A stretch of 21,738 nucleotides of DNA from a virus. Positions 1 to 21,738 of the stretch are shown here, piece by piece; positions within the stretch are counted from its first letter, which is position 1; each line of letters starts with the position of its first letter. The notes beneath the pieces were generated by a model. That model saw nothing but the letters and a program-made list of their open reading frames with translations. It was not told the origin of the DNA and ran no database searches. Both the position numbers and the translations under genes were made by a program. Location of the stretch: IMG/VR virus record IMGVR_UViG_3300025099_000166, positions 1 to 21,738 of that record; one strand, given 5' to 3'.

Positions 1-211
1 TAATACTAAAAGAGCATTAATTACTTTTCAAGATTATGCAGCTAGTGGTCATGGTCAGGGTATTGTTTTTTCTCCAGCAGGTACTGAAGACCTCACCATA
101 GGACAACAATATTTTGTACAAACAGATGGAACATTAGGTACTAGCGCAGATGATCCATCGGTAATCGCAGGAACTGCAATAGGTGCTAGTGATATAATTG
201 TGAAAGGATAA
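1..211 (+). CDS. Fibre-like structural protein, C-terminal fragment (5' end outside window)
   Basis: The frame is open from base 2 to a TAA at 209-211, giving the last 69 residues of a protein that begins upstream. The final ~35 residues (QQYFVQTDGTLGTSADDPS, then VIAGTAIGASDIIVKG) are almost identical to the C-termini of the two complete fibre-like proteins downstream, so this is a third member of the same local family. The part before that module does not show the propeller-type repeat of the paralogs, so the missing body may differ. A role as a virion surface or tail-fibre component is inferred from the paralogs and from their place before internal-virion-type genes. Its terminal Lys-Gly codons (AAAGGA) serve as the ribosome-binding site of the next gene. 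Confidence 0.75.
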   Translation, partial: NTKRALITFQDYAASGHGQGIVFSPAGTEDLTIGQQYFVQTDGTLGTSADDPSVIAGTAIGASDIIVKG

Positions 212-218
212 TACACAA

Positions 219-476
219 ATGGCTAAGACAATAACAGAGAACTCAACTAAACTAAGTAAATATGTATTCGCTGATGATAAACCAGTGACTATGGGATCTG
301 ACATGATCACTGTTGGTAGTGATCCAGTAGATTTCTACATAGCGGATCTTAACAGTAGCAATGCAACAATGCATGAAGATGTAACTGCACCTGATGGTTG
401 GTCAGGTAACAAACACTTCTTTGATGGAACCAGTTGGACTAACAATCCTAATTGGGTAGATCCAGACGCTGAGTAA
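219..476 (+). CDS. Small conserved-type phage protein (85 aa), unknown function
   Basis: This 85-residue, acidic, soluble protein has no membrane segment or signal peptide. It starts at an ATG 7 bases after the previous stop, preceded by AAAGGA. The C-terminal half is rich in Trp, Asn and Asp (DGWSGNKHFFDGTSWTNN, ending NPNWVDPDAE). From memory, similar short proteins with the pattern N-S-S-N-A-T...D-G-T-x-W...NPNWVDP sit beside tail-fibre or structural genes in marine phages; a search would be needed to confirm this. It lies between two members of the fibre-like family, 8 bases before the next ORF, so a role as a companion of the fibre (a virion decoration or assembly protein) is plausible but only inferred. 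Confidence 0.7.
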   Translation: MAKTITENSTKLSKYVFADDKPVTMGSDMITVGSDPVDFYIADLNSSNATMHEDVTAPDGWSGNKHFFDGTSWTNNPNWVDPDAE

Positions 477-484
477 GGATTACT

Positions 485-1972
485 ATGCGTATAGTCGGTA
501 ATAACCCACAACTATCTAGGCAGACACAAGGTACAGCATCAGGTGCTATTACTGGTGGTAAGCCTGTGCTTGTGAATACTGATGGTACTGTAAGTGAGAT
601 TAGTGCAACTGCTGTAGCAGTAGATGCTTCTGTTGGATCAGCAACGGCTTTTGAGGCAGCACAAGTTGGAGTAATGGATGCAGTATTTGATCCTGACCAA
701 AATAAAGTTGTTATCGTTTATCCAGATGTAGGTAATAGTGGTTATGGTACAGCTATTGTAGGAACAATAAGTGGTACATCAATTAGCTTTGGAAGTCCTA
801 CAGTTTTTGAAAGTGCCAACCTCGCATCTACTTCTAAATCTGTATGTTACGATACCACTAATAATAAGGTAGTTGTAGTTTATAGAGATAGTGGTAATTC
901 AGGTTATTTAACAGCTAGGGTAGGAACAGTTAGTGGTACTGGTATTAGTTTCGGTACTGTTTCTGTTATACGTTCTACTCAAGCATACTTTACTAGTTGT
1001 GCATATCATGCTCAAGAAAATAAAATTGCAGCTGTATATCAAGATGCAAGTGCCAGTCAGTACGGATATATTATATCTTTTCCTGTATCAGGAACAGGCA
1101 TAGGAACAGTAGGAAATTATGCAGTTTTTTCTGATAATAATAGCGTTAATGCGTTATGGCATCCATCAGCTATAGTATACGACAGTAACGCAGAAGATCT
1201 TGTAGTTTTTTATTTAGATACTGCTAACAGCGACAGACTTACTGCAAAAGTTTGCCGTATAAATGGAACTAACTGGACTTTTGGTAGCGCAACAATAGCT
1301 GATTCGGGAACAAGTGGTGAATGGTCAACTGTTTTTGATAGCAATAGTAATAAAATTGTAGTTGTATATAGAGATCAGAATAACAATAACTATGGTACAG
1401 CTAAAGTAGGAACGGTTAGTGGAACATCTATAAGTTTTGGTAGTGGTACTGTTTTTGCAGTGCATGATACACCTAATTTTCAACGTATAGCTTTTGATAG
1501 CAATGTTAATAAAGTTATTATTCCTTATAGAGGTACAGGTAAAGGTAGAATAAATATAGGAACAGTATCGGGAACAGGTATTAGTTTCGATGGTGAAATT
1601 ATATATAATGATAATAATTCTTATTATGGTACAGCAGTTTTTGACAGTAACACTAATAAAACTGCTGTTATGTATATGGATTCTGGTAATTCAAATCATG
1701 GATACGCTTCTGTTTTTAGTCATGCTAGTACAACAACTAACTTATCAGCATCTACATCAGAATCATTCATAGGCTTTGCAGAAGATACAGTAGCTACTGG
1801 GCAACCTGTTACGATAAATACTAAAGGTGCTATCGATGAAAACCAGAGTAGCTTAACACCAGCCCAACAGTATTTTGTACAGACAGATGGTACGCTAGGT
1901 ACATCAGCAGATGATCCATCAGTCGTAGCTGGTACTGCCGTAACTGCAACTAAACTGATTGTGAAAGGGTAA
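485..1972 (+). CDS. Fibre-like protein with seven propeller-type repeats (paralog 1)
   Basis: A 495-residue protein in three parts. An N-terminal module (about 1-60) contains ASGAITGGKPVLVNTDGTVS. A central region (about 66-435) carries seven copies of a 50-57 residue repeat, and a C-terminal module (about 435-495) ends TKLIVKG. The repeat core is [FY]DSNxNKVVVVYRDxGNS followed by YGTAxVGTVSGTSISFG. Copies start near nt 681, 847, 1006, 1177, 1335, 1491 and 1640; copies 3 and 4 are the most divergent. Seven copies of about 52 residues, each with several short beta-strand-like segments, fit a seven-bladed beta-propeller. The N- and C-terminal modules resemble each other (GKPVLVN / GQPVTIN) and could pack together around the propeller. 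The start follows AAGGAT. The gene lies directly upstream of a second copy with the same layout. A virion receptor-binding or surface protein is the best reading; no known domain is recognised with certainty. Confidence 0.8.
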   Translation: MRIVGNNPQLSRQTQGTASGAITGGKPVLVNTDGTVSEISATAVAVDASVGSATAFEAAQVGVMDAVFDPDQNKVVIVYPDVGNSGYGTAIVGTISGTSISFGSPTVFESANLASTSKSVCYDTTNNKVVVVYRDSGNSGYLTARVGTVSGTGISFGTVSVIRSTQAYFTSCAYHAQENKIAAVYQDASASQYGYIISFPVSGTGIGTVGNYAVFSDNNSVNALWHPSAIVYDSNAEDLVVFYLDTANSDRLTAKVCRINGTNWTFGSATIADSGTSGEWSTVFDSNSNKIVVVYRDQNNNNYGTAKVGTVSGTSISFGSGTVFAVHDTPNFQRIAFDSNVNKVIIPYRGTGKGRINIGTVSGTGISFDGEIIYNDNNSYYGTAVFDSNTNKTAVMYMDSGNSNHGYASVFSHASTTTNLSASTSESFIGFAEDTVATGQPVTINTKGAIDENQSSLTPAQQYFVQTDGTLGTSADDPSVVAGTAVTATKLIVKG

Positions 1973-1977
1973 CAGAC

Positions 1978-3459
1978 ATGGTAGCATACGTTCCCCCTAA
2001 ACAAGCAGGAAAATATAAAGCTGTTGCATCTGGTGCGATTACAAATGGTAAGCCTGTAATTGTTAATAGTGCTGGTACGGTTAGTCAGGTTGCAGATAAT
2101 AGTATCGCGTTCAATATTGGTAGTAATTCTACATTTGAAAACGGTAATATGTCTGCTGGAAAACGATCATCAGATATGACGTTTGATAGCAATAGCAATA
2201 AAGTAGTTATTGTATATAGAGACAATGGTAATTCTAATTATGGGACTGCTGTTGTAGGAACAGTAAGTGGTACTAATATTAGTTTCGGAACTCCTGTTGT
2301 TTATAAAAGCGCACACGCAAAGTTTAGTTCTTGTTGTTTTGATTCTAATGCAAACAAAGTTGTTGTAGCATATTCAGACGGAGGGAATGTTAATGAAGGT
2401 CACGCCAAGGTAGGAACGGTAAGTGGTACTAGTATTAGTTTTGGGGCAGAAGCTACTTTTCTTAGTGACGGTTGTGAGTATATTAGTACAGCTTTTGATA
2501 GTAATTCAAATATTGTAGCAGTTGCTCATGTAAATAATGGAAATGCTAATTACGGAGAATTAAGATTAGGATTGGTAAGTGGTACAGATATAAGTTTTGG
2601 AACTAATCATCAATTTGAAACAGCAAGTACTTTACACGTACATTGCTCTTTTAACTCTACATCTAATAAACTGTTAATAGCATATGAAGATGTTGCAGAT
2701 GGACAAAAAGGTAAACATAGATGGGCTACTTTAAGTGAGAGTGGCGGGTCTACTAGTTGTAGTTTTGGCAGTGTTTTTACATTTGAAAGTGGTGAAGTTC
2801 GATGGATAAAAACTTGTTTTGATAGTGGAAATAATAAATCACTTATTTTTTATGATTACAAAGGAACCTCTCAGCAAGGTGCTTCTGTTGTAGTTACCTC
2901 TAATTCATCAGCAGGTTCAAGAGTAATTCTTACAGGTAGCGATACACTTAATGACAAACAATGGGTAGATGCATCATATAATGCAAGTACAGGAAAAGTA
3001 GTTGTACTTTATAGAGATTCAAATGATGTACTTAAAATAATAGAAGGTACTGTTTCTGGCACTAGTATTAGTTATGGAAGTGCAACAACAGTTAATGACA
3101 GAGTAGGCAGATTACCTATAAGTACATATGACAGTAATTCAAATAAAGTTGTCATAGGATATGCAGAAATTAATGATTCATCTGGACCTTTTGGTCAGGC
3201 TAATGTAGTTACTTCAGCCGTAACAGATCAAAACCTAACATCAGAAAACTACATCGGCATAGCATCAGGTGGTACATATGCTGATACAGCAGAAGCTACA
3301 ATAGATGTAGTTGGTACAGTAAACAAAGATCAAACATCACTAACAGCAGGTCAGACATACTATGTACAGAATGACGGTACGTTAGGAACAAGTGCAGATG
3401 ATCCTAGTGTAGTGGCTGGAACTGCAATATCTGCAACAGAATTAATTGTGAAAGGTTAA
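1978..3459 (+). CDS. Fibre-like protein with seven propeller-type repeats (paralog 2)
   Basis: A 493-residue paralog of the preceding protein with the same plan. The N-terminal module contains ASGAITNGKPVIVNSAGTVS. Seven repeats begin near nt 2181, 2338, 2493, 2650, 2818, 2978 and 3127. The C-terminal module contains TYYVQNDGTLGTSADDPSVV and ends in TELIVKG. The first repeat begins at about residue 68, as in paralog 1. Repeats 1-3 are close to the consensus; 4 and 5 are divergent and carry extra Ser, Gly and Cys. The terminal modules are far more conserved between paralogs than the repeats, as expected if the ends bind a common partner and the repeats face a variable target. The start is an ATG 5 bases after the previous stop, with AAAGGG as ribosome-binding site. 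The function as a receptor-binding or decoration protein is inferred. Confidence 0.8.
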   Translation: MVAYVPPKQAGKYKAVASGAITNGKPVIVNSAGTVSQVADNSIAFNIGSNSTFENGNMSAGKRSSDMTFDSNSNKVVIVYRDNGNSNYGTAVVGTVSGTNISFGTPVVYKSAHAKFSSCCFDSNANKVVVAYSDGGNVNEGHAKVGTVSGTSISFGAEATFLSDGCEYISTAFDSNSNIVAVAHVNNGNANYGELRLGLVSGTDISFGTNHQFETASTLHVHCSFNSTSNKLLIAYEDVADGQKGKHRWATLSESGGSTSCSFGSVFTFESGEVRWIKTCFDSGNNKSLIFYDYKGTSQQGASVVVTSNSSAGSRVILTGSDTLNDKQWVDASYNASTGKVVVLYRDSNDVLKIIEGTVSGTSISYGSATTVNDRVGRLPISTYDSNSNKVVIGYAEINDSSGPFGQANVVTSAVTDQNLTSENYIGIASGGTYADTAEATIDVVGTVNKDQTSLTAGQTYYVQNDGTLGTSADDPSVVAGTAISATELIVKG

Positions 3460-3465
3460 TGACTA

Positions 3466-3702
3466 ATGGAAGAAATATCGCCAGTAATTTTTTGGAATGT
3501 AGTACTAACGCTGGTTATTGGCCCAGCCATTTGGATGTTCAGGAATCTCATGGCAGAGGTTAAACGCATAGATATACTTCTGAATAGAACTAGAGAAGAT
3601 TACTCTACTAAGCAGGAGCTAAGAGAAGATATGAAAATGGTATCCGAAGCTCTACATAGGTTAGAAGATAAGTTAGATAAAGTATTAGAGAGAGGAAAAT
3701 AA
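3466..3702 (+). CDS. Small membrane protein with N-terminal helix and coiled coil (78 aa)
   Basis: Residues about 6-25 form one hydrophobic segment (VIFWNVVLTLVIGPAIWMF). They are followed by a charged, heptad-like stretch to the C-terminus (LREDMKMVSEALHRLEDKLD) that should form a coiled coil. This is the plan of a single-pass, membrane-anchored coiled-coil protein. Phage proteins of this shape include holin-associated and virion membrane-anchor proteins, but no specific family is recognised. The start is preceded by AAAGG within the last codons of the fibre-like gene. An overlapping ATG at 3459 in another frame was not chosen because it loses the membrane segment. The stop is 1 base before the next start codon. 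Confidence 0.7.
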   Translation: MEEISPVIFWNVVLTLVIGPAIWMFRNLMAEVKRIDILLNRTREDYSTKQELREDMKMVSEALHRLEDKLDKVLERGK

Positions 3703-8015: not shown

Positions 8016-9592
8016 TGGCAGAAATAAAAGAACAAAAACCACAAGGTATGATGAGTAAGCAAGAAGAGTCTGAAGATACTGGTTTTATTGCTCGTATGAT
8101 ACCTGATAAAAATGAAAGAAGGGCTACAGGTAGACTTATTGGTGATGCTTTAACTAGTCTTTCTACTATGTTTGGGTCTACTGCCACTCAATTAGGAGCT
8201 ATGAGAGAAGAAGAAGAAATTTCTGATGAAAGACAGGCTTTAGCTGTACAAGCAGCAGAAAATAGAATTGCAGTTGTAGGGGCAGAAAATAAAAAAAGAG
8301 CAAAAGGATTAGAAAAAATTCTTGATAGAAGACGAGTAGCACAAAATAATGCTCAAATATTTTTTGGTAATCCTATGTATAAAAAAGCAAAGAATAAAAT
8401 TATTGCATCTGGAAAAATAACACTAGAAGAATTTAATGCTTTAGAGAAAGATCCAGATATTCAAGCATCATTAGGTAAAACTTTTGGTATACTTAGTAAT
8501 ACCGAAAATCCACAGACTGCTGCTGCATCTTTAGTACAGAGGATGTATGAGGAAAAAGAAGATCCTAAAGTAATGTTATTTTCTAGATTTAAAGTTCCTT
8601 TTTATAAACAAGTAAAAACTACACTTGATCAACAAACTGAACAAGCATTAGGAGGTAAACCTAACTCTATTGCTGAAAATATAGATGCCAGAAGACCAGA
8701 GAAGATTCCTGGTCAAATAGCTAGTAAAGTAAAATTAAATCCAGACTACAAAGAAAAAGAAATGACTGGGGCAGGTAAAATATTTCCAGTACTAGACGGA
8801 TCAGGTGCGTTACGATTAGAAAGAGCCGTACAAGGTTTAATAGCATCTAATAGAGGATTAAAGTTAGTTTATCCTGAAGGAGATTTTTCAACGACTGCAA
8901 AAATATCGTCAGAAGGTACGACAGGTAGTAAAAACGATATTAGTTTTGGAACTAAAGCTATGGAATTAGCACGTTCTATGATTAATTCTGGATATAGTGA
9001 AACAGATGCAGATATACTGTACAGAGATGTTACATTAATTTTACAAAATGCTGCACCCAGAAATGAAGAAAGTGATACAGAACAAAAAGATTTTGAAAAA
9101 AGAGTAGATCAAATTAAACTTGAGTTATCAAAAATAGATAACAGATTTGAAAGAAAAGAAAAGATAGAACAATTAAAGAAAGGTGAAGGGCTACCTAAGA
9201 AAACAGATCCTGTTGTAACTACTGAAACTTTAGCTCTTTCTTTATTAGGATTATCATCAGATACGGAAGCACCTGAGTATTTAATTAATACTTATAACTC
9301 TGATCCAAATATAGAAAGAGTAGAAGATAATATTTACAATGTAACTGTTAAAAAGGGTACAGATAAATATCCAGCAGGTACAGTTGTAAGTATTAAAGTT
9401 GAAAGTGGAAAAGTAATAAGTATTACTGATACAAAACAAAAGGCAGATGTAGTACCATCAACTTATGAAGAGTGGAAAGCTTTACCAGAAGAAACAATAG
9501 AACAGCAAAAAGCTAAACGTAGATTTATAAATATAGAAGTAGTACGTAAAGGCATACAAGAAGAAAATAGAAAGAAAAAGGATCAGCAATAA
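8015..9592 (+). CDS. Probable internal virion protein (525 aa), unknown
   Basis: A 525-residue, Lys/Glu-rich, mostly helical protein without membrane segments or signal peptide. Its ATG shares one base with the stop of the previous gene and has AGGAG upstream inside that gene. A helical N-terminus (EISDERQALAVQAAENRIAV) is followed by a central ordered part, a charged linker at about 335-395, and a small beta-rich domain at about 430-480 (YNVTVKKGTDKYPAGTVVSI). No known family is recognised. It overlaps the 1297-residue gene by one base and belongs to the same late cluster, so an internal virion or ejection role is inferred from context only. Confidence 0.7.
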   Translation: MAEIKEQKPQGMMSKQEESEDTGFIARMIPDKNERRATGRLIGDALTSLSTMFGSTATQLGAMREEEEISDERQALAVQAAENRIAVVGAENKKRAKGLEKILDRRRVAQNNAQIFFGNPMYKKAKNKIIASGKITLEEFNALEKDPDIQASLGKTFGILSNTENPQTAAASLVQRMYEEKEDPKVMLFSRFKVPFYKQVKTTLDQQTEQALGGKPNSIAENIDARRPEKIPGQIASKVKLNPDYKEKEMTGAGKIFPVLDGSGALRLERAVQGLIASNRGLKLVYPEGDFSTTAKISSEGTTGSKNDISFGTKAMELARSMINSGYSETDADILYRDVTLILQNAAPRNEESDTEQKDFEKRVDQIKLELSKIDNRFERKEKIEQLKKGEGLPKKTDPVVTTETLALSLLGLSSDTEAPEYLINTYNSDPNIERVEDNIYNVTVKKGTDKYPAGTVVSIKVESGKVISITDTKQKADVVPSTYEEWKALPEETIEQQKAKRRFINIEVVRKGIQEENRKKKDQQ

Positions 9593-12500
9593 TGTCAAAA
9601 GAAAAATTGACAACTGAAGAATTTCTTAAAAATGAAGATTATACTGATGCTTTATTTGCCTATGGTAAAAGGCAAGGTAAAACCTTTGGTACTAAAACTG
9701 AAGCTTTAGAAAATTTCTTAGGTGATTACAGAGGAGTGCAGTCCAATACAGGTCTTGCTGTAATGTTTGCTAATGACGTAACTAATATTAGAGATGATGA
9801 AGAAAGATTAGAGTTAGGTCGATTATATAAAGCTGTAGATGAAGATCTAGAAGATTTTGCTGGTCAACAAAGCGGATTAGCAACAACAGCAGAATATATT
9901 GGTAAGGGTATACTAGACCCACTAAACATTTTAGGTTTTGGTGCAGGTACTATTGTAGGTAGGACAGTAGGTAAAGTAGCCTTAAACAGAATTATATCAA
10001 ATGCGTTTAAAGGTAATATATCAAAAGAAATATCTAAAGGTGCTGCGAAAAAAACTATTGGTTTAGGTGTAGGTATTGGAGGAGTTGAAGGTGTAGGTCA
10101 AGGATTATCTATAGAGAATGTAAAAGGTGAAGGTAAATTAGGTTATCAGGATGAAATAGATGCTGGTAATGTTGCTTTGATGGGTGGTATAGGTGCAGTA
10201 ACTGGTGGTGTGTTTGGTGGTTTAGGTGGTAGATCGGCTGCAAAACAACTAACAAAAGCAGGAGAGGTAATCCAAAAACAAGTAAAAACTATAGAAAATA
10301 CAGCCCAAGGTAAGGTTGCTAGATCAGCTAATATACAAAACTTTGTTAATAAACAAAAAGGTAATTTTAATCCTTTAAGTGTTGTAGGAACATACGTTAG
10401 ACCTACTAATAAAAAACAACAGCTAATAGATGAGCCTGAAAATTATGGTGAGTTTGGTCTTATTAAAAGTATTATAGATGGTAAGGCAGAAGTAGAGTTT
10501 TTACCCACTACTTTTGGTCAAACAAAAAATCCAAAAACAGGATTGTTTGATGAAAGAAAAACAACATTAGTAGAATTTAATAAAATTAAAGGTGTAAGTG
10601 AAGCAAATAAAAGAGCATACCAGAAAAAATTTGTAGATAAGTACGGTTTGTTTTTTAGTAAAGCTGATATTGAAAAAGGAAAAGAACTACTTAGAACAAA
10701 TTCTAATATATCTATTCCTGAATTAGATACTATTTTTGAAGTAGGTTTAAAACAAGAAGACTTTGAAAACGTATCATCTCTTGTTTTTGATACAGCTCAA
10801 AACTTTTTAAAAAATACTAAGATTGATCCAAATACTGCTTCAACAATAAGAGTAATTATGGATGATCCTATGAAAAGGATTTCTGAAAAGTTTGGTGAAT
10901 TAATACGTCTTGGAAATAAAGATAGAAATCTTTTAAGTAGTAGTATAGCAAATAATTTAGTTAGGTATAATCTAACACAAGAACAATTTTCTCATGCACT
11001 TTTAGCAGACATAAGTATAAGTATGACTAAAGGTGCAGAAATGTCTAGTATTAAAAAACTAGTGGATACTAATACTCGTATTGGTAACAAACTGGAACAA
11101 ATGGAAAAGAATTTAACACCTTCTCAAAGAAAAGTTTTTCAAGCAGTAAAAGAACAAAGAGAAGCAGAAAAAGATATAGCAGGTAAATTTAGTATTTTTG
11201 TTGATATATGGAGATCTTTTTTAGTTACACAACCTGCTACAACATTTCGTAACGTGTTTGGTTCTGCGTTACGAGTACCAGGTGAAACATTAGATATTGC
11301 TTTACAAAGTAGTAAATTTTTTACACAGTTTGAATCTAAAGCACTAGGTAAGAATATACCAGAACCAGATTTAAAAAATGAAAGTCTTTTACTAAGTAAA
11401 AATTTACTTAATCCATTAGAGCAAATTGAATTAGCACAAATAGTAGCTAAAGAGTTTCCTGAAGCCCAACGTAAAGTGTTTGATGTTTTTGATGATTACT
11501 TTGCTGTTACTTTAGGAGATGATAGCAAGGCAGGTGGGGTTCTAAAGAAACTTAGTTTTGCATCTAAATTAGCTAACGTAGCTAACAGAGCGCAAGATAG
11601 AGCAATTAAATCTGCTGGTTTAATGACAGAGTTAGACAATCAAGTTAAAACTGCTATTCGTAGAGGTGAAATTACAGACCCAAAAGTAAAAGGTATTACT
11701 GATTTAATTGAACAAAATAAATTAAATTTAGTAAACGATGAGATGATATCTAAATCATTACAGTTTGCATATAAATTAACCTATCAATCACGTAATGCTG
11801 GTGATGAAGTACTTGGTGTAGGTGGTTTAATAAATATTGCACAAAACACTCTTAACAGAATTGCAGTAGCAAAATTAGGTGTACCGTTTCCTAACTTCCT
11901 TATTAATGGTTTTGTGTATACGTTAAATAGAGGTATGGGTGGTGGTGCATTAAAAATGCTTTATAAAGGCGCACAAACTCTTGGGTATGATATATTTCCT
12001 CAAGCAGCTAAAAAAGAAAGAGAAAAAATAGATGATCTTACAGGAAAAATAAATGCTGCTGTAAAAAAAGGTATTAAAAGCCAAAAACAAAAAAATGATG
12101 TAGCTACTATGAGAAAAGAAGTAGCAGCTTTAGAAGCTAAAGCAGGTAAGAGATTACAAAATGTAGAACAATTTAGAAAAGGTTTTGTTGAGAGTGCTGA
12201 AGGTGCAGCTTTAATGTTTGCAGGATATGGTATAAGAGAAACAATAGGTGGTGCTAGATATGATGAACTAAAAATTGGTAATACTACTATTGATGTAGGG
12301 CCATTGTTTCCTTTAACACCATTTTTATGGTGGGGTGAAGTAATAAGAAGAAAACTTAATGATGAACCTATAGATGGAAAAATTATATCAGAAGGAGTGC
12401 AAGCTTTATCTGGACTTCAAGCAGATAGGGCAGGTCCATTTGCTAAATTTCTTGGGGGAACTTACCAATTTCTTAGAGATTTAAATACTGAAGATCCATT

Positions 12501-13485
12501 AGCAGCTAAAAAAACTGGTGAATTAGTAGGAGGGGCGATTGGATATATAGTTAAAGGATTTTACACTCCCTTTAAAGCAATTGATGACCTTGCTAAAGAT
12601 TTAGGACCAGCAGAATTACGGCAAAATTTTGAGAAAGGTTTTCAAGAGTTTATTACCGAAGAAGGTGATACGTATACAAAAGAAATGGCAAGAGGTGCAT
12701 TCAATGAATTTACTAGACAAATGTTTAGAGGTACTAGTTTTCAAACTGGTGTCTTTGGAGAAGAGTCTGCATCACGTCCATTGCAATCTGTAACTGGACT
12801 GCAACCAAAAACAAGAGTATTAACTTCTAGAAAACAACTCTCAGGTACAGCAGAAGGCCTTCCTAGAGGAAATTTAGGAGATGAAGTAGAGAGAGTAGGT
12901 ATAGATGCTTATAATTTAGAAGTTAGATCAGAAGTACCTGAATATACTTTTCAATATAAGAAAATACTAGGAGAGTTAGCTGAAAAAAATATCAAACCTT
13001 TAATTCAAACAGAGATATATAAAAAATTACCTATAGATGCACAAAAGGCAGCAATACTAGCTGAGTATCAAGGAGTAACTGGATTAAACGATGAAGAAAA
13101 AAATGCTTTAAGAGGTTTAGGTTTTAAATTTGATAATTTAAAAAAGGTTACTTCTGAAATAATAAAAACTAAGATGCCTTTCTTACATAATATGCATAAC
13201 TTTAGAAAAACATACACTAAAGAAGAAATAAGAAAACTTTATAGAGATAGAAAAGCGGCAGGTGATCCTATACCACAATTAAAATACGTAGGTGAGGAAA
13301 CTACAGATAGAGGTATTAACTATGCAGCAAAGGCACAAAATGATAAACTTAATGAATATAGAGCATTAATTAATGAAGATAGAAAACGTAGAAGTTTATT
13401 AGGAGGACGTTATACAATAGAAGGACAATCTTCAGGAATGAGAGAAGGTGGTTACGTAACTCAAATGAGTGCATTAGGATTATAA
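9592..13485 (+). CDS. Giant internal virion / ejection-type protein (1297 aa)
   Basis: The largest gene in the window. Residues about 100-215 are Gly-rich and hydrophobic (GILDPLNILGFGAGTIVG; GNVALMGGIGAVTGGVFGG), a pattern typical of membrane-penetrating segments in phage ejection proteins. Residues about 533-565 contain DIWRSFLVTQPATTFRNVFG. From memory, a 'PATTxRNV' motif of this kind recurs in large marine phage internal proteins. Another hydrophobic zone lies at about 870-915 (EGAALMFAGYGIRE, PLFPLTPFLWWGEV). The C-terminus is charged and ends in MREGGYVTQMSALGL. No convincing lytic transglycosylase or peptidase motif was seen. By size and position it resembles the large ejection proteins of T7-like phages (gp15/gp16 role), which form a channel for DNA entry; this is inference. 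The start overlaps the previous stop (TAATG). Confidence 0.75.
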   Translation: MSKEKLTTEEFLKNEDYTDALFAYGKRQGKTFGTKTEALENFLGDYRGVQSNTGLAVMFANDVTNIRDDEERLELGRLYKAVDEDLEDFAGQQSGLATTAEYIGKGILDPLNILGFGAGTIVGRTVGKVALNRIISNAFKGNISKEISKGAAKKTIGLGVGIGGVEGVGQGLSIENVKGEGKLGYQDEIDAGNVALMGGIGAVTGGVFGGLGGRSAAKQLTKAGEVIQKQVKTIENTAQGKVARSANIQNFVNKQKGNFNPLSVVGTYVRPTNKKQQLIDEPENYGEFGLIKSIIDGKAEVEFLPTTFGQTKNPKTGLFDERKTTLVEFNKIKGVSEANKRAYQKKFVDKYGLFFSKADIEKGKELLRTNSNISIPELDTIFEVGLKQEDFENVSSLVFDTAQNFLKNTKIDPNTASTIRVIMDDPMKRISEKFGELIRLGNKDRNLLSSSIANNLVRYNLTQEQFSHALLADISISMTKGAEMSSIKKLVDTNTRIGNKLEQMEKNLTPSQRKVFQAVKEQREAEKDIAGKFSIFVDIWRSFLVTQPATTFRNVFGSALRVPGETLDIALQSSKFFTQFESKALGKNIPEPDLKNESLLLSKNLLNPLEQIELAQIVAKEFPEAQRKVFDVFDDYFAVTLGDDSKAGGVLKKLSFASKLANVANRAQDRAIKSAGLMTELDNQVKTAIRRGEITDPKVKGITDLIEQNKLNLVNDEMISKSLQFAYKLTYQSRNAGDEVLGVGGLINIAQNTLNRIAVAKLGVPFPNFLINGFVYTLNRGMGGGALKMLYKGAQTLGYDIFPQAAKKEREKIDDLTGKINAAVKKGIKSQKQKNDVATMRKEVAALEAKAGKRLQNVEQFRKGFVESAEGAALMFAGYGIRETIGGARYDELKIGNTTIDVGPLFPLTPFLWWGEVIRRKLNDEPIDGKIISEGVQALSGLQADRAGPFAKFLGGTYQFLRDLNTEDPLAAKKTGELVGGAIGYIVKGFYTPFKAIDDLAKDLGPAELRQNFEKGFQEFITEEGDTYTKEMARGAFNEFTRQMFRGTSFQTGVFGEESASRPLQSVTGLQPKTRVLTSRKQLSGTAEGLPRGNLGDEVERVGIDAYNLEVRSEVPEYTFQYKKILGELAEKNIKPLIQTEIYKKLPIDAQKAAILAEYQGVTGLNDEEKNALRGLGFKFDNLKKVTSEIIKTKMPFLHNMHNFRKTYTKEEIRKLYRDRKAAGDPIPQLKYVGEETTDRGINYAAKAQNDKLNEYRALINEDRKRRSLLGGRYTIEGQSSGMREGGYVTQMSALGL

Positions 13486-16065: not shown

Positions 16066-17769
16066 TTATACGCCACAAACCCCTCCTGAGTTGGTAATTT
16101 CACAGATATCATGTGTCTCAACGGCTTCTTCAAACTCTGTTCCTAACTTATCTACTGCCTCACTGTAAGGTACTACAGAAAGAGGTTGACCACCACGGCA
16201 ACCATCTGGATACACTGTAAATCCACGTAGTCTATGTGCATATGATGCTAATGTATTAGCAAAATCACTTACAGTATCCTCATTATTAAATTTAGATCCC
16301 CAAGCAGGTAGATTAATAGTAGAACTAATAGACATATCTACATAATCCTGTACATCTGCCTGAAACTTTATCCTTCTCTCATAATCATCTGCTAAGTCTA
16401 GTGCAGATTCTATCTTATCAGGATCAGCATCATACATATCAATTAATTCTTGTGCTGCAGAGTCTACAACGTATTGATACTTCCATTTAGTACCACCTGT
16501 TAAGTATCTACGTTTGTAGGCTACGGCAAAGATAGGCTCTATTCCACTGGAGCTACCAGCGAGTATAGAAATACTACCAGTAGGAGCGATAGCGCGATTC
16601 GCAACTGGTCTTGATATGGATAACTCGTCAGCAAATTCCTTAGAGATGTTATCACTGACACCTTTATAGATTGACAACCACTTGTGTAGTTCTGGGGTAA
16701 CTTCATACTTCTCTCCTCGTTTAACTAACCATTCATGCATTCCCATAAGACCTAAACCTAGTCTTCTATTTTTTGCTCTAACCTGATGTACTTTAGCATA
16801 AGGTAGTTCTGCTCTTAGCGTACCACATATTAAGAATTTAGTACCCAGTTCAACCACTCTAGCAAGCTCTTGAAGTGAATCAATGCGTCCAAGGTTAATG
16901 CTCCCAAGATTACAAACATCACTATCATCAGCAGAAGTAACTTCGGTACAAGCATTTCTCAGGGTATCCTTTTCATTATCCATGAAGTTAAAGCTAAATC
17001 CAGGTTCAGCAGAAGTTAATGCCTGTTCAACATTCTTCAAGAACACTTCACCAACATCACCTGTCTTCCAGTAGTTCATTAACCATTCAGTATCATAATT
17101 AACACTGATGTTAGTCATATCTAATGGTGCGCGGAAGTTAAAGTCCTGTTCTTTAATATCTTTGAATGTAAACCCTGTAGTACCAACAGGCATATCATTC
17201 CAGTTCTTTGCTATTAAAAAGTAAGGTATATCATTATGTTTCCAGTTTAAGGAAGCGTACATGGCAGATCTACGAGATCCTCCCTGCATTACATTAGCAC
17301 CTATAGAGTTGATCATTTGCATCTTAGGAATAGGACCAGATGCTAGTCCACCAGATCCACCTAGAGATCTACCTGACTCACGATATACAGAATAGTCTAC
17401 TCCAATACCACCGCCTGTCATCAAACATGATTCTGCTTTCCAACTAAGGTTAGCCCAATCTTCTCTTGTATCTTCTTCAGCAGATAATAGAAAACAGTTA
17501 TTATAGAATCTTCTATCCCTCCCTGCATAGTAAATATATCTACCACCAGGAACAAACTTGAGATCTGTTATATACTTCTGTAGTTCTTTACGTTCTTCCT
17601 TACGCATCAGAGCTTCTTCACCTGCACGTAAGTTACCACATACATCTTCTACAAGTACTCTTGATAACTGCTCCCACGTATCGCAACCAGTATGCGAGTA
17701 TTTTAAGTTAAATATATCTTCAGAGAATTTGGATCTGAACATTGGATTCATGTTTGATTTAAATGACAT
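16066..17769 (-). CDS. nrdJ: Class II (B12-dependent) ribonucleotide reductase
   Basis: A 567-residue enzyme that reduces ribonucleotides to deoxyribonucleotides. Visible elements are FVPGGRYIYYAGR (72-84), the redox Cys92 in NNCFLLSA, MTGGGIGVDYS (117-127), the catalytic triad Asn272-Cys274-Glu276 (NACTE), the partner Cys286 in VCNLGSINL, APTGSISILAGSSSGIEP (395-412), and a C-terminal Cys pair (Cys556, Cys565) able to pass electrons. There is no N-terminal ATP-cone and no adjacent small-subunit gene, which points to the adenosylcobalamin-using class II type. It is shorter than bacterial forms (~700 or more), as usual in phages. The start overlaps the 58-residue ORF upstream by 11 bases, and a weak AAAGG lies 12 bases before the ATG. 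Confidence 0.9.
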   Translation of the reverse strand: MSFKSNMNPMFRSKFSEDIFNLKYSHTGCDTWEQLSRVLVEDVCGNLRAGEEALMRKEERKELQKYITDLKFVPGGRYIYYAGRDRRFYNNCFLLSAEEDTREDWANLSWKAESCLMTGGGIGVDYSVYRESGRSLGGSGGLASGPIPKMQMINSIGANVMQGGSRRSAMYASLNWKHNDIPYFLIAKNWNDMPVGTTGFTFKDIKEQDFNFRAPLDMTNISVNYDTEWLMNYWKTGDVGEVFLKNVEQALTSAEPGFSFNFMDNEKDTLRNACTEVTSADDSDVCNLGSINLGRIDSLQELARVVELGTKFLICGTLRAELPYAKVHQVRAKNRRLGLGLMGMHEWLVKRGEKYEVTPELHKWLSIYKGVSDNISKEFADELSISRPVANRAIAPTGSISILAGSSSGIEPIFAVAYKRRYLTGGTKWKYQYVVDSAAQELIDMYDADPDKIESALDLADDYERRIKFQADVQDYVDMSISSTINLPAWGSKFNNEDTVSDFANTLASYAHRLRGFTVYPDGCRGGQPLSVVPYSEAVDKLGTEFEEAVETHDICEITNSGGVCGV

Positions 17770-20640: not shown

Positions 20641-20669
20641 CTTATAACATAAAGTGGTTTATTTGTCAA
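20641..20669 (-). promoter_or_regulatory. Near-consensus sigma70 promoter for the SSB-to-exported-protein operon
   Basis: Read on the - strand: TTGACA (20669-20664, perfect -35), a 17-base spacer, then TATAAG (20646-20641, five of six matches to the -10). Transcription should begin around 20634, leaving a short leader before the ribosome-binding site at 20618-20621. The -35 box lies within the last codons of the HNH gene (Leu-Asp-Lys-stop). It is the only clear host-type promoter in the window and should drive the whole - strand block down to the hairpin at 13950. Confidence 0.75.
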
Positions 20670-21360
20670 GGTTATTTTTCTCCAATTCATAATAAAAATC
20701 TGCTATCTTATATAGTTCTTTTGATGTAGCTGTATTTTTTATTGTATTAGCTTTTACGGAAACTACAACTACATTATCTTTTGTATACTCTTTATTGTTA
20801 TCTATTCTATCGAAAGATAAATTCCAAGGGCTATTAATATTAAAAACAAATGGAACTTTATAAATAGGACACTTTAAATCTTTAGGTATTAAATCTAAAA
20901 TGTCTTCTGGTGTTAATTTGACAGATATATTATTTAAATTTTTTCTTCTTTTCGTATCTGCTATAAGTCTCTGTCTTCTTAAAGAAGCCCATTGTCTAGT
21001 AATATCTTTAAAAGATTCTACCTTTCTTATTATTTTTCTTCTTGCTTCTTTAGCTCTATTTCTTCTTTGCTTAACTTCTGGTTTTTGTCTGTATTTTCTT
21101 GCTGCTTCTTTACCCTCTGGACTTTGATTATATTCTTTTCTTTTTTGTTTACCCTCTGGACTTTGATTATATTTTCTTTTCTGTAAATTTATCTTTTCTT
21201 TAACTTCTGGTTTTTGTCTGTATTTTCGCATAACTTCATTGCGTTTTAATCTATTTTTAGAAATTTTATAGTATGCTTTATAATATTCTTTTGCATAATT
21301 TTTTTTTCTTTCTTTACGTTCTAGTTCATTATCTATTATCTCTAATTCATACTGTTGCAT
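20659..21360 (-). CDS. HNH-family endonuclease, probable free-standing homing type (233 aa)
   Basis: Starts at the ATG at 21360 (MQQYELEIID), 6 bases after AGGAGG; the longer frame reaching 21393 was rejected. Residues about 15-130 are very Lys/Arg-rich and contain short repeats in the order QKPEVK, NQSPEGK, NQSPEGK, QKPEVK, typical of DNA-binding arms in phage HNH proteins. The C-terminal domain has LKCPIYKVPF, then SFDRIDNNKEYTKDNVVVVS and KANTIKNTAT. These correspond to the S-x-D-R-I-D...GY...N-V...S...AN-x-x-K pattern of a phage HNH family. Such enzymes cut DNA at or near the site where their gene sits. It overlaps the polymerase gene by 14 bases, and its tail carries the -35 box of the next operon. 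Composition is more A-rich than its neighbours. Confidence 0.8.
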   Translation of the reverse strand: MQQYELEIIDNELERKERKKNYAKEYYKAYYKISKNRLKRNEVMRKYRQKPEVKEKINLQKRKYNQSPEGKQKRKEYNQSPEGKEAARKYRQKPEVKQRRNRAKEARRKIIRKVESFKDITRQWASLRRQRLIADTKRRKNLNNISVKLTPEDILDLIPKDLKCPIYKVPFVFNINSPWNLSFDRIDNNKEYTKDNVVVVSVKANTIKNTATSKELYKIADFYYELEKNNLDK

Positions 21361-21738
21361 TAAACTCCTCCTGATCCATCCAGTTACTTCCATGAGACAT
21401 TTCTACCTCAAGAGGAATGTAATCAGATAGACCAAATCGTTTTTTAGCTTCATCTTGTGCATCCAGGAGACACTGTGGGCCTATATCCTTAACTATATCT
21501 ATCTCATCTGGATGAGTATCTATGAGTACACTATCATGTACTGTATTAATTACAACACTTTTTAATCTTTTCTCTTTTAGTTTATTGAATAATAATATCA
21601 CACCTAATGGTACAATCTCTGCTGTAGCTACTGACTGTACAGGATAGTTTACTATCTGTGTTTTGAAGTTAGCATTACCTGATCTGTTTCTTTGGCAGTC
21701 AGGAAAACTAAACTGTCTACCTGTAGCAGTAGTAACTA
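21347..21738 (-). CDS. polA: DNA polymerase, family A, C-terminal part (5' end outside window)
   Basis: The frame is open from the window edge to a TGA at 21347-21349, giving the last 129 residues. The segment TQIVNYPVQSVATAEIVPLG matches the helix after the fingers of family A polymerases (N-Y-P-x-Q-x-x-A). VVINTVHDSVLIDTHPDE is palm motif C, with His-Asp and a Ser where most bacterial enzymes have Glu; Ser is seen in some phage enzymes. The C-terminus ends EMSHGSNWMDQEEFNATV. A short ORF beginning with GTG at 21601 is just the internal part of this frame. The fingers and exonuclease domains lie beyond the window. This is the phage replicative polymerase. Confidence 0.9.
   Translation of the reverse strand, partial: VTTATGRQFSFPDCQRNRSGNANFKTQIVNYPVQSVATAEIVPLGVILLFNKLKEKRLKSVVINTVHDSVLIDTHPDEIDIVKDIGPQCLLDAQDEAKKRFGLSDYIPLEVEMSHGSNWMDQEEFNATV
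21367..21372 (-). promoter_or_regulatory. Shine-Dalgarno of the HNH gene inside the polymerase gene
   Basis: AGGAGG ends 6 bases before the ATG at 21360 and lies in codons for the polymerase C-terminus (Gln-Glu-Glu). It settles the HNH start and shows that HNH translation is coupled to the end of polymerase translation. Confidence 0.8.

Follow-up and report, generated by a model that had tools for sequence, protein, structure and literature searches.

Exchangeable seven-bladed propeller rings on position-specific mounts: a proposed adhesin array of marine phages

Results

A propeller gene array at the edge of a viral contig

The window, i.e. the whole stretch of DNA analysed here, is an entire virus record of 21,738 bases whose genes are cut at both ends. 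Structural-type genes occupy the plus strand up to ∼ 13.9 kb and are followed by convergent replication genes on the minus strand. Two tandem plus-strand ORFs, P0001 and P0002, lie at its start (Table 1). They had been described in a first-pass annotation as two paralogs; the tandem pair is real but the array holds three genes. Judged by sequence, P0001 and P0002 are genes 2 and 3 of a three-paralog array whose gene 1 is cut by the window edge. Only the end of gene 1 is left, as ORF 2–211, and 'EDLTIGQQYFVQTDGTLGTSADDPSVIAGTAIGASDIIVKG' in this ORF resembles the position-1 mount of the related loci L047 and L049. The 85-aa ORF that separates genes 1 and 2 has copies in L065, L048 and L049 that are 94–96% identical, while the adjoining rings are 35–48% identical. 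It gave no family match and is possibly a chaperone or a mount partner. The 78-aa gene downstream of the array is outside the propeller system.

Table 1. Features of the propeller array and its immediate neighbours in the window.
Feature	Position (strand)	Length or residues	Assignment and basis
Propeller gene 1, end	2..211 (+)		C-terminal end of a putative third paralog, cut by the window edge; partial last blade and C-module HMM matches
Companion ORF	219..476 (+)	85 aa	Between genes 1 and 2; homologues in 57 loci
Propeller gene 2 (P0001)	485..1972 (+)	495 aa	Predicted ring of seven blades flanked by N and C modules; HMM repeats, AF2, Foldseek
P0001 N module	485..622 (+)	1–46	Putative position-2 mount; N-module HMM match; same-position best match in 98% of genes
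P0001 ring-closing (Velcro) outer strand	623..664 (+)	47–60	Predicted to complete blade 7; half-blade match to profile positions 38–51
P0001 blades 1–7	674..1744 (+)	64–420	HMM repeat matches at 64–112, 119–165, 169–220, 229–277, 281–328, 331–379 and 381–420
P0001 C module	1745..1969 (+)	421–495	C-module HMM match, 120.6 bits
Propeller gene 3 (P0002)	1978..3459 (+)	493 aa	N module, seven blades and C module, assigned by sequence repeats; HMM repeat matches at 66–113, 116–163, 167–218, 220–272, 275–310, 328–374 and 382–423
P0002 N module	1978..2115 (+)	1–46	Putative position-3 mount; N-module match; best-matching modules lie at position 3 in other arrays
P0002 C module	3235..3456 (+)	420–493	C-module HMM match, 125.4 bits
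Downstream gene	3466..3702 (+)	78 aa	96–97% identical in L049 and L065; marks close phage relatives

Two further genes of the window were noted in passing. A 1297-aa protein (9592–13485) is probably an internal virion protein; it weakly matches PHROG_342, a family of such proteins, and a tblastn search of cultured phages gave no match to it. The end of an ORF at 20659–21393, adjoining a DNA polymerase fragment, resembles by eye an HNH-type homing endonuclease.

Seven repeats and the closure of the ring

A repeat HMM of 52 positions (consensus EYISATFDSNANKVVIAYRDGGNSNYGTAVVGTVSGTSISFGSAVVFESAST) was built from twelve window repeats and refined on relatives. It found exactly seven repeats in P0001 and seven in P0002, with per-repeat E-values of 3e-7 to 6e-28, far beyond chance, and so bore out the first-pass reading of both ORFs as real, tandem genes that each carry seven ∼ 52-residue repeats (core DSNxNKVVVVYRDxGNS...GTVSGTSISFG). 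The repeat anchors begin at residue 68 in P0001 and residue 69 in P0002, close to the common start at ∼ 68 given earlier, and are spaced by 49–58 aa. The modules that frame the repeats are similar, as had also been noted: P0001 and P0002 are 41% identical over the N module and 58% over the C module, compared with just 21–31% in blades 3–6.

In P0001, the stretch ahead of blade 1 (residues 47–60) gives a match confined to profile positions 38–51, which correspond to the outer strand, and the match of blade 7 is confined to positions 2–41. The N-terminal half-blade was found in 66 of 100 seven-blade relatives. The last blade of the relatives mostly stops before profile position 46, blades 1–6 mostly at 49–52. 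An N-terminal half-blade combined with a shortened last blade points to classical strand-swap (Velcro) closure of a propeller, in the window proteins as well as in their relatives.

Fold prediction

AlphaFold2 was run on P0001 with a 92-sequence alignment and returned an all-β model with repeated strand sets (mean pLDDT 90.2, pTM 0.82). A Foldseek search of the PDB with this model gave only propellers among the matches listed, with good coverage of seven-bladed targets such as the PLL lectin 8q7u (TMq 0.54, TMt 0.74), WDR5 (TMt 0.71) and CIAO1 (TMt 0.70). The best viral matches in BFVD include proteins of 474 and 865 residues and the ICBM2 protein discussed below. For a 14-blade relative (L065:3137-5725) the AlphaFold2 model was confident over both sets of seven; its low pTM (0.51) is what two flexibly joined rings would be expected to give. 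The P0001 model supports a closed seven-bladed β-propeller. Structure prediction had been suggested at first pass for both proteins; that of P0001 yielded a propeller and not the solenoid or fibre shaft named there as the contrary outcome, and P0002 is predicted to be a propeller likewise, placed by its sequence repeats.

Searches of Pfam, PHROGs and PDB sequences with the window proteins gave no real family match, only weak scattered ones. The commonest Pfam match, Cyclophil_like2, was obtained for 36 of the 92 members and corresponds to single repeats. Nothing scored above the curated cut-off or was consistent across members, and the proteins thus belong to no existing Pfam or PHROG family. 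The fold is known; the architecture is unusual.

Repeat number is quantised in sevens

In scans of IMG/VR, P0001 as query recovered 110 relatives and the family profile at least 296. Repeats were counted in 271 complete frames from marine viral contigs, almost all of the sequences being metagenomic. Seven repeats were called in 204 of these frames and 14 in 47; one frame had 28 and another 20 (∼ 21). The span from N to C module is mostly 468–519 or 832–909 residues, and none was near the ∼ 530 residues expected for eight blades. Loci fetched after the HMM had been fixed showed the same pattern, with seven repeats in 94/118 and 14 in 13/118. In 14-repeat proteins the spacing from repeat 7 to repeat 8 is usually 60–99 residues, compared with 52 otherwise, and a closing strand of its own is present in the second ring. 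The series extends to single proteins of 1786 aa with three rings (about 3 × 7; L138:5014-10371) and 2353 aa with four (4 × 7; L089:3451-10509, on a contig labelled as a Euryarchaeota MAG).

Apparent exceptions were mostly traced to the calling procedure. Counts of 6, 8, 12 and 13 mostly go with double spacings (100–150 aa) or normal spans and were rejected as missed or doubled calls, and counts of 4 and 5 are an artefact of the ATG-only start rule, the full frames holding seven. The sole ORF that is truly one short is L132:5980-7281, whose six blades are mostly 94–95% identical in DNA; it may reflect assembly collapse of the repeat or a rare six-blade form. The free variation in repeat number that the first-pass annotation had set against a propeller was therefore not seen: counts are seven or multiples of seven, with one six-blade exception. 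When one genome per species was searched (243 pattern matches), only five relatives were found, all in MAG contigs, which we take to be mis-binned viral contigs and not host genes.

Modules follow array position, rings mostly do not

Among 55 interior runs (those with sequence on both sides), 40 contain three propeller genes, two contain four and 13 contain one; none contains two. A gap of ∼ 270 nt between genes 1 and 2, occupied in the window and its relatives by the 85-aa ORF, is present in 44 of 57 three-gene arrays. For the N and C modules of a gene, the best match in another phage lies at the same array position in 166 of 173 cases (96%); for rings the figure is only 86 of 205 (42%; ∼ 33% when permuted). 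The short length of the modules was considered as the cause of this position signal and rejected, since equally short pieces of ring give just 40–41%. These data are consistent with N and C modules acting as address-like, position-specific mounts. The small excess of same-position rings over the permuted value means that ring exchange would not be free.

Thirteen of the 30 ring pairs that are ≥ 80% identical cross positions, and cross-position pairs in different phages reach 81–98% identity; at ≥ 95%, eight pairs are same-position and two cross-position. Where cross-position pairs were checked, their modules are mostly closer to those of same-position genes than to those of the ring-sharing gene. 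For L014_2 and L066_1, for instance, the rings are 85% identical and the modules 0.57/0.60, compared with 0.65–0.85/0.92–0.96 for same-position modules. Along such pairs identity goes up just inside the N module and down at the C module. The converse is seen between the window and its close relatives, where identity is 0.85–0.90 (N module) and 0.91–1.00 (C module) in most cases and 0.35–0.48 in the rings, so that the earlier remark of conserved ends and diverged blades holds between phages (modules 0.85–1.00 in most cases). Set against L065 and L049, the 85-aa and 78-aa neighbours are 95–97% identical, most mounts 0.87–0.96 and rings 0.35–0.46; at position 2, L049 has two rings and the window a single one. 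We infer that whole rings are exchanged between three fixed mounts, with recombination as the suggested cause. Chimeric assembly of metagenomic contigs could mimic some of the swaps; each would need two breakpoints that respect the module borders.

The link between ring and position could also have been lost through fast evolution (saturation), with no cassette exchange, given that ring identity between phages is usually just 35–60% and a position signal could vanish over such distances. This seems unlikely, however, as the cross-position pairs persist at ≥ 80% identity and the modules of these ≥ 80% ring pairs mostly track position, not ring.

Variation within the blade

Near-identical blade pairs within one ring (n = 17) have 68 of ∼ 108 amino-acid-changing differences at positions 3, 19, 21, 25 and 51. 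In 242 close pairs, mostly between phages, replacement rates are highest at positions 51, 21 and 25, followed by 22, 45, 19 and 3. The overall pN/pS of these 242 pairs is 0.19, and the hot positions do not exceed 0.49 outside the small within-ring set. With the exception of 45, the variable positions correspond to the BC loop, its flank and the DA connection. The antiparallel four-stranded topology of a blade would place the BC and DA loops on one face of the ring. P0002 and a 97% identical relative, L062, differ by four ring replacements (residues 62, 84, 187 and 190), all of them in the BC loop/DA region. Mutation by a diversity-generating retroelement was considered, and the codon patterns in L132 do not support it: variable codons at position 21 include GAA, GTT and GGT, changes that are not adenine-specific.

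Tail association and host

The window proteins have no shaft, and the link to tail fibres comes from relatives. In L018 the ring is fused to a shaft that matches tail-fibre PHROGs, and in L089 to PHROG tail-fibre and connector families; fusions occur in other relatives as well. The arrays of L047 and L065 are preceded by tail and fibre-like genes, which in L047 are a fibre-like gene and one for a tail-type protein. The cultured cobavirus ICBM2 has its homologue, gene 49, close to the terminase, where it sits among genes labelled 'tail assembly chaperone', between the terminase and the genome end; this region is treated as the tail-fibre module in the cobavirus paper (PMC6775973). Single propeller adhesins of phages are known, namely phi11 gp45, PRD1 P2 and PhiKZ gp131C (PMC4901313). 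The fusions to fibre shafts, the gene neighbours and order, and this analogy suggest that the propellers are tail-associated, and we suggest that they are probably adhesin heads with a glycan ligand. Tail-fibre fusions, genome position and loop diversification suggest a role in receptor binding.

A marine alphaproteobacterium is a plausible host. The B12-dependent ribonucleotide reductase of the window (16066–17769) is 74% identical to that of Roseobacter phage CRP-3 and 72% to that of CRP-212; a propeller match was absent from the 49 kb of CRP-3 examined.

Discussion

We propose, with a probability of roughly 0.7, that closed seven-blade rings serve as exchangeable heads on position-specific, tail-associated mounts. 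The chain would run from the N module through the outer strand of blade 7 and the seven blades to the C module; on this course the two termini are expected to emerge at the same place and to make up a mount outside the ring. Position-specific mounts would keep each protein at its own place on a tail-associated structure, with the rings as interchangeable heads, sometimes two in series on one mount. Recombination within conserved sequence, just inside the N module on one side and where the C module begins on the other, would swap whole rings between positions and phages. On one ring face, the variable BC and DA loops would probably bind a cell-surface glycan or protein. A more far-reaching form of the model, to which we give somewhat less than even odds, is that marine podoviruses possess a combinatorial adhesin system in which three mounts, non-equivalent and locked to their positions, each bear one or two interchangeable closed seven-bladed rings. 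The rings would travel as complete cassettes from position to position and from phage to phage, and point changes would retune the hypervariable loops on one of their faces. The three mounts may form one heteromeric tail appendage.

The propellers might degrade glycans, as enzymes of the depolymerase or sialidase type, and not simply bind them. Sialidases and glycoside hydrolases are numerous among the Foldseek matches, a tail protein encoded upstream in L047 has a match to the endosialidase β-barrel Pfam PF12195, and known phage endosialidases contain trimeric propellers (PMC4901313). However, the (near-)invariant ring residues of alignment A1 (FD, K, SGT, FG) recur at equivalent blade positions. 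This alignment showed no conserved residue confined to one blade, which an active site would need, and an enzymatic role is less likely for that reason. Moreover, no enzyme family was matched at the curated cut-off, and sialidase propellers are six-bladed, unlike these seven-bladed rings. We therefore regard catalysis as improbable.

The same low standing applies to decoration of the capsid, proposed in the first-pass annotation, in which the proteins would be head fibres that aid loose sticking to particles or mucus-like polymers. Some phages do display adhesive domains on the head, and the N and C mounts of the window are small and lack a shaft. However, the propellers of relatives are fused to tail-fibre shafts, the L047 and L065 arrays follow tail and fibre-like genes, and ICBM2_49 is located in a tail-fibre module, all of which makes a head-decoration role less likely than the tail-associated heads we favour. 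An extended solenoid or fibre shaft, to be considered because fibre repeats often make shafts and the ORFs are fibre-like in composition, is refuted in silico and can be given almost no weight: strand-swap closure, AlphaFold2 and Foldseek are all contrary to it, and a shaft fits any repeat number, with no reason for the quantisation in sevens seen here (7 or 14 called in 251 of 271 frames, nearly all the rest being missed calls).

Exchangeable propeller heads have partial counterparts in known systems. The PLL family lectins of Photorhabdus (PLL, PHL, PLL2, PLL3) also form a seven-bladed ring of similar repeats, as reflected in the Foldseek match to 8q7u, and have multivalent sugar sites between blades (PMC6943638). 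They are, however, free proteins without phage mounts, their tryptophan-based W-motif is absent from the window repeat consensus, and neither phmmer nor a profile search of the PDB gave a match to them. PhiKZ gp131C (PDB 4GBF) is likewise a phage tail-associated seven-bladed propeller; it sits at the baseplate periphery and has been speculated to bind receptor (PMC4901313). It differs in being a single domain of a large myovirus protein, whereas the window family forms a three-gene array with swappable rings. In a search of PDB chains with profile A1 the only matches were two antibody light chains (E 0.22 and 0.43), so that no homology to 4GBF was found. The tail adhesin gp45 of Staphylococcus phage phi11 shares with the window proteins a propeller head closed by an N-terminal strand (PMC4901313), but has five blades, is encoded by one gene and forms a homotrimer with a helical stem; the PDB sequence search gave no match to it. 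Weak but real homologues with N and C modules are found in gene 49 of Lentibacter phage vB_LenP_ICBM2 (Cobavirus) and in Marine virus AG-345-O18, annotated as hypothetical or not at all. Both differ from the window family in being single genes with diverged blades (three or four by HMM), and the AG-345-O18 protein is a fusion with other N- and C-terminal parts.

Propeller heads on phage tails, as single examples, and the shuffling of tail-fibre parts were both already known; the present case joins the two at scale, in a family of hundreds of marine viral loci outside the coverage of Pfam and PHROGs. Here the unit of exchange would be a closed ring, its number quantised in sevens, while three mounts keep separate identities. 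If correct, this would account for shifts of receptor specificity in abundant uncultured ocean phages that leave tail assembly intact, whole-ring swapping being an economical way to alter what the virus binds. A further implication is a natural type of seven-fold binding scaffold in which each blade offers about five or six variable loop positions, and the evolution of propeller repeat units becomes testable in living populations.

The C module of some relatives contains inserted segments. A cupredoxin-like segment with a possible copper site (GHPFHF...YYCTVHGNGMG) is present within that of L033:7461-9245 and L047:11072-12838, and similar segments open the L089 and L138 fusion proteins; PHROGs labels segments of this kind tail fibre or connector. 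In L061:2470-4689 and L017:161-2413 the C module holds an unrelated propeller-like region of SMP-30/YVTN type with about five repeats.
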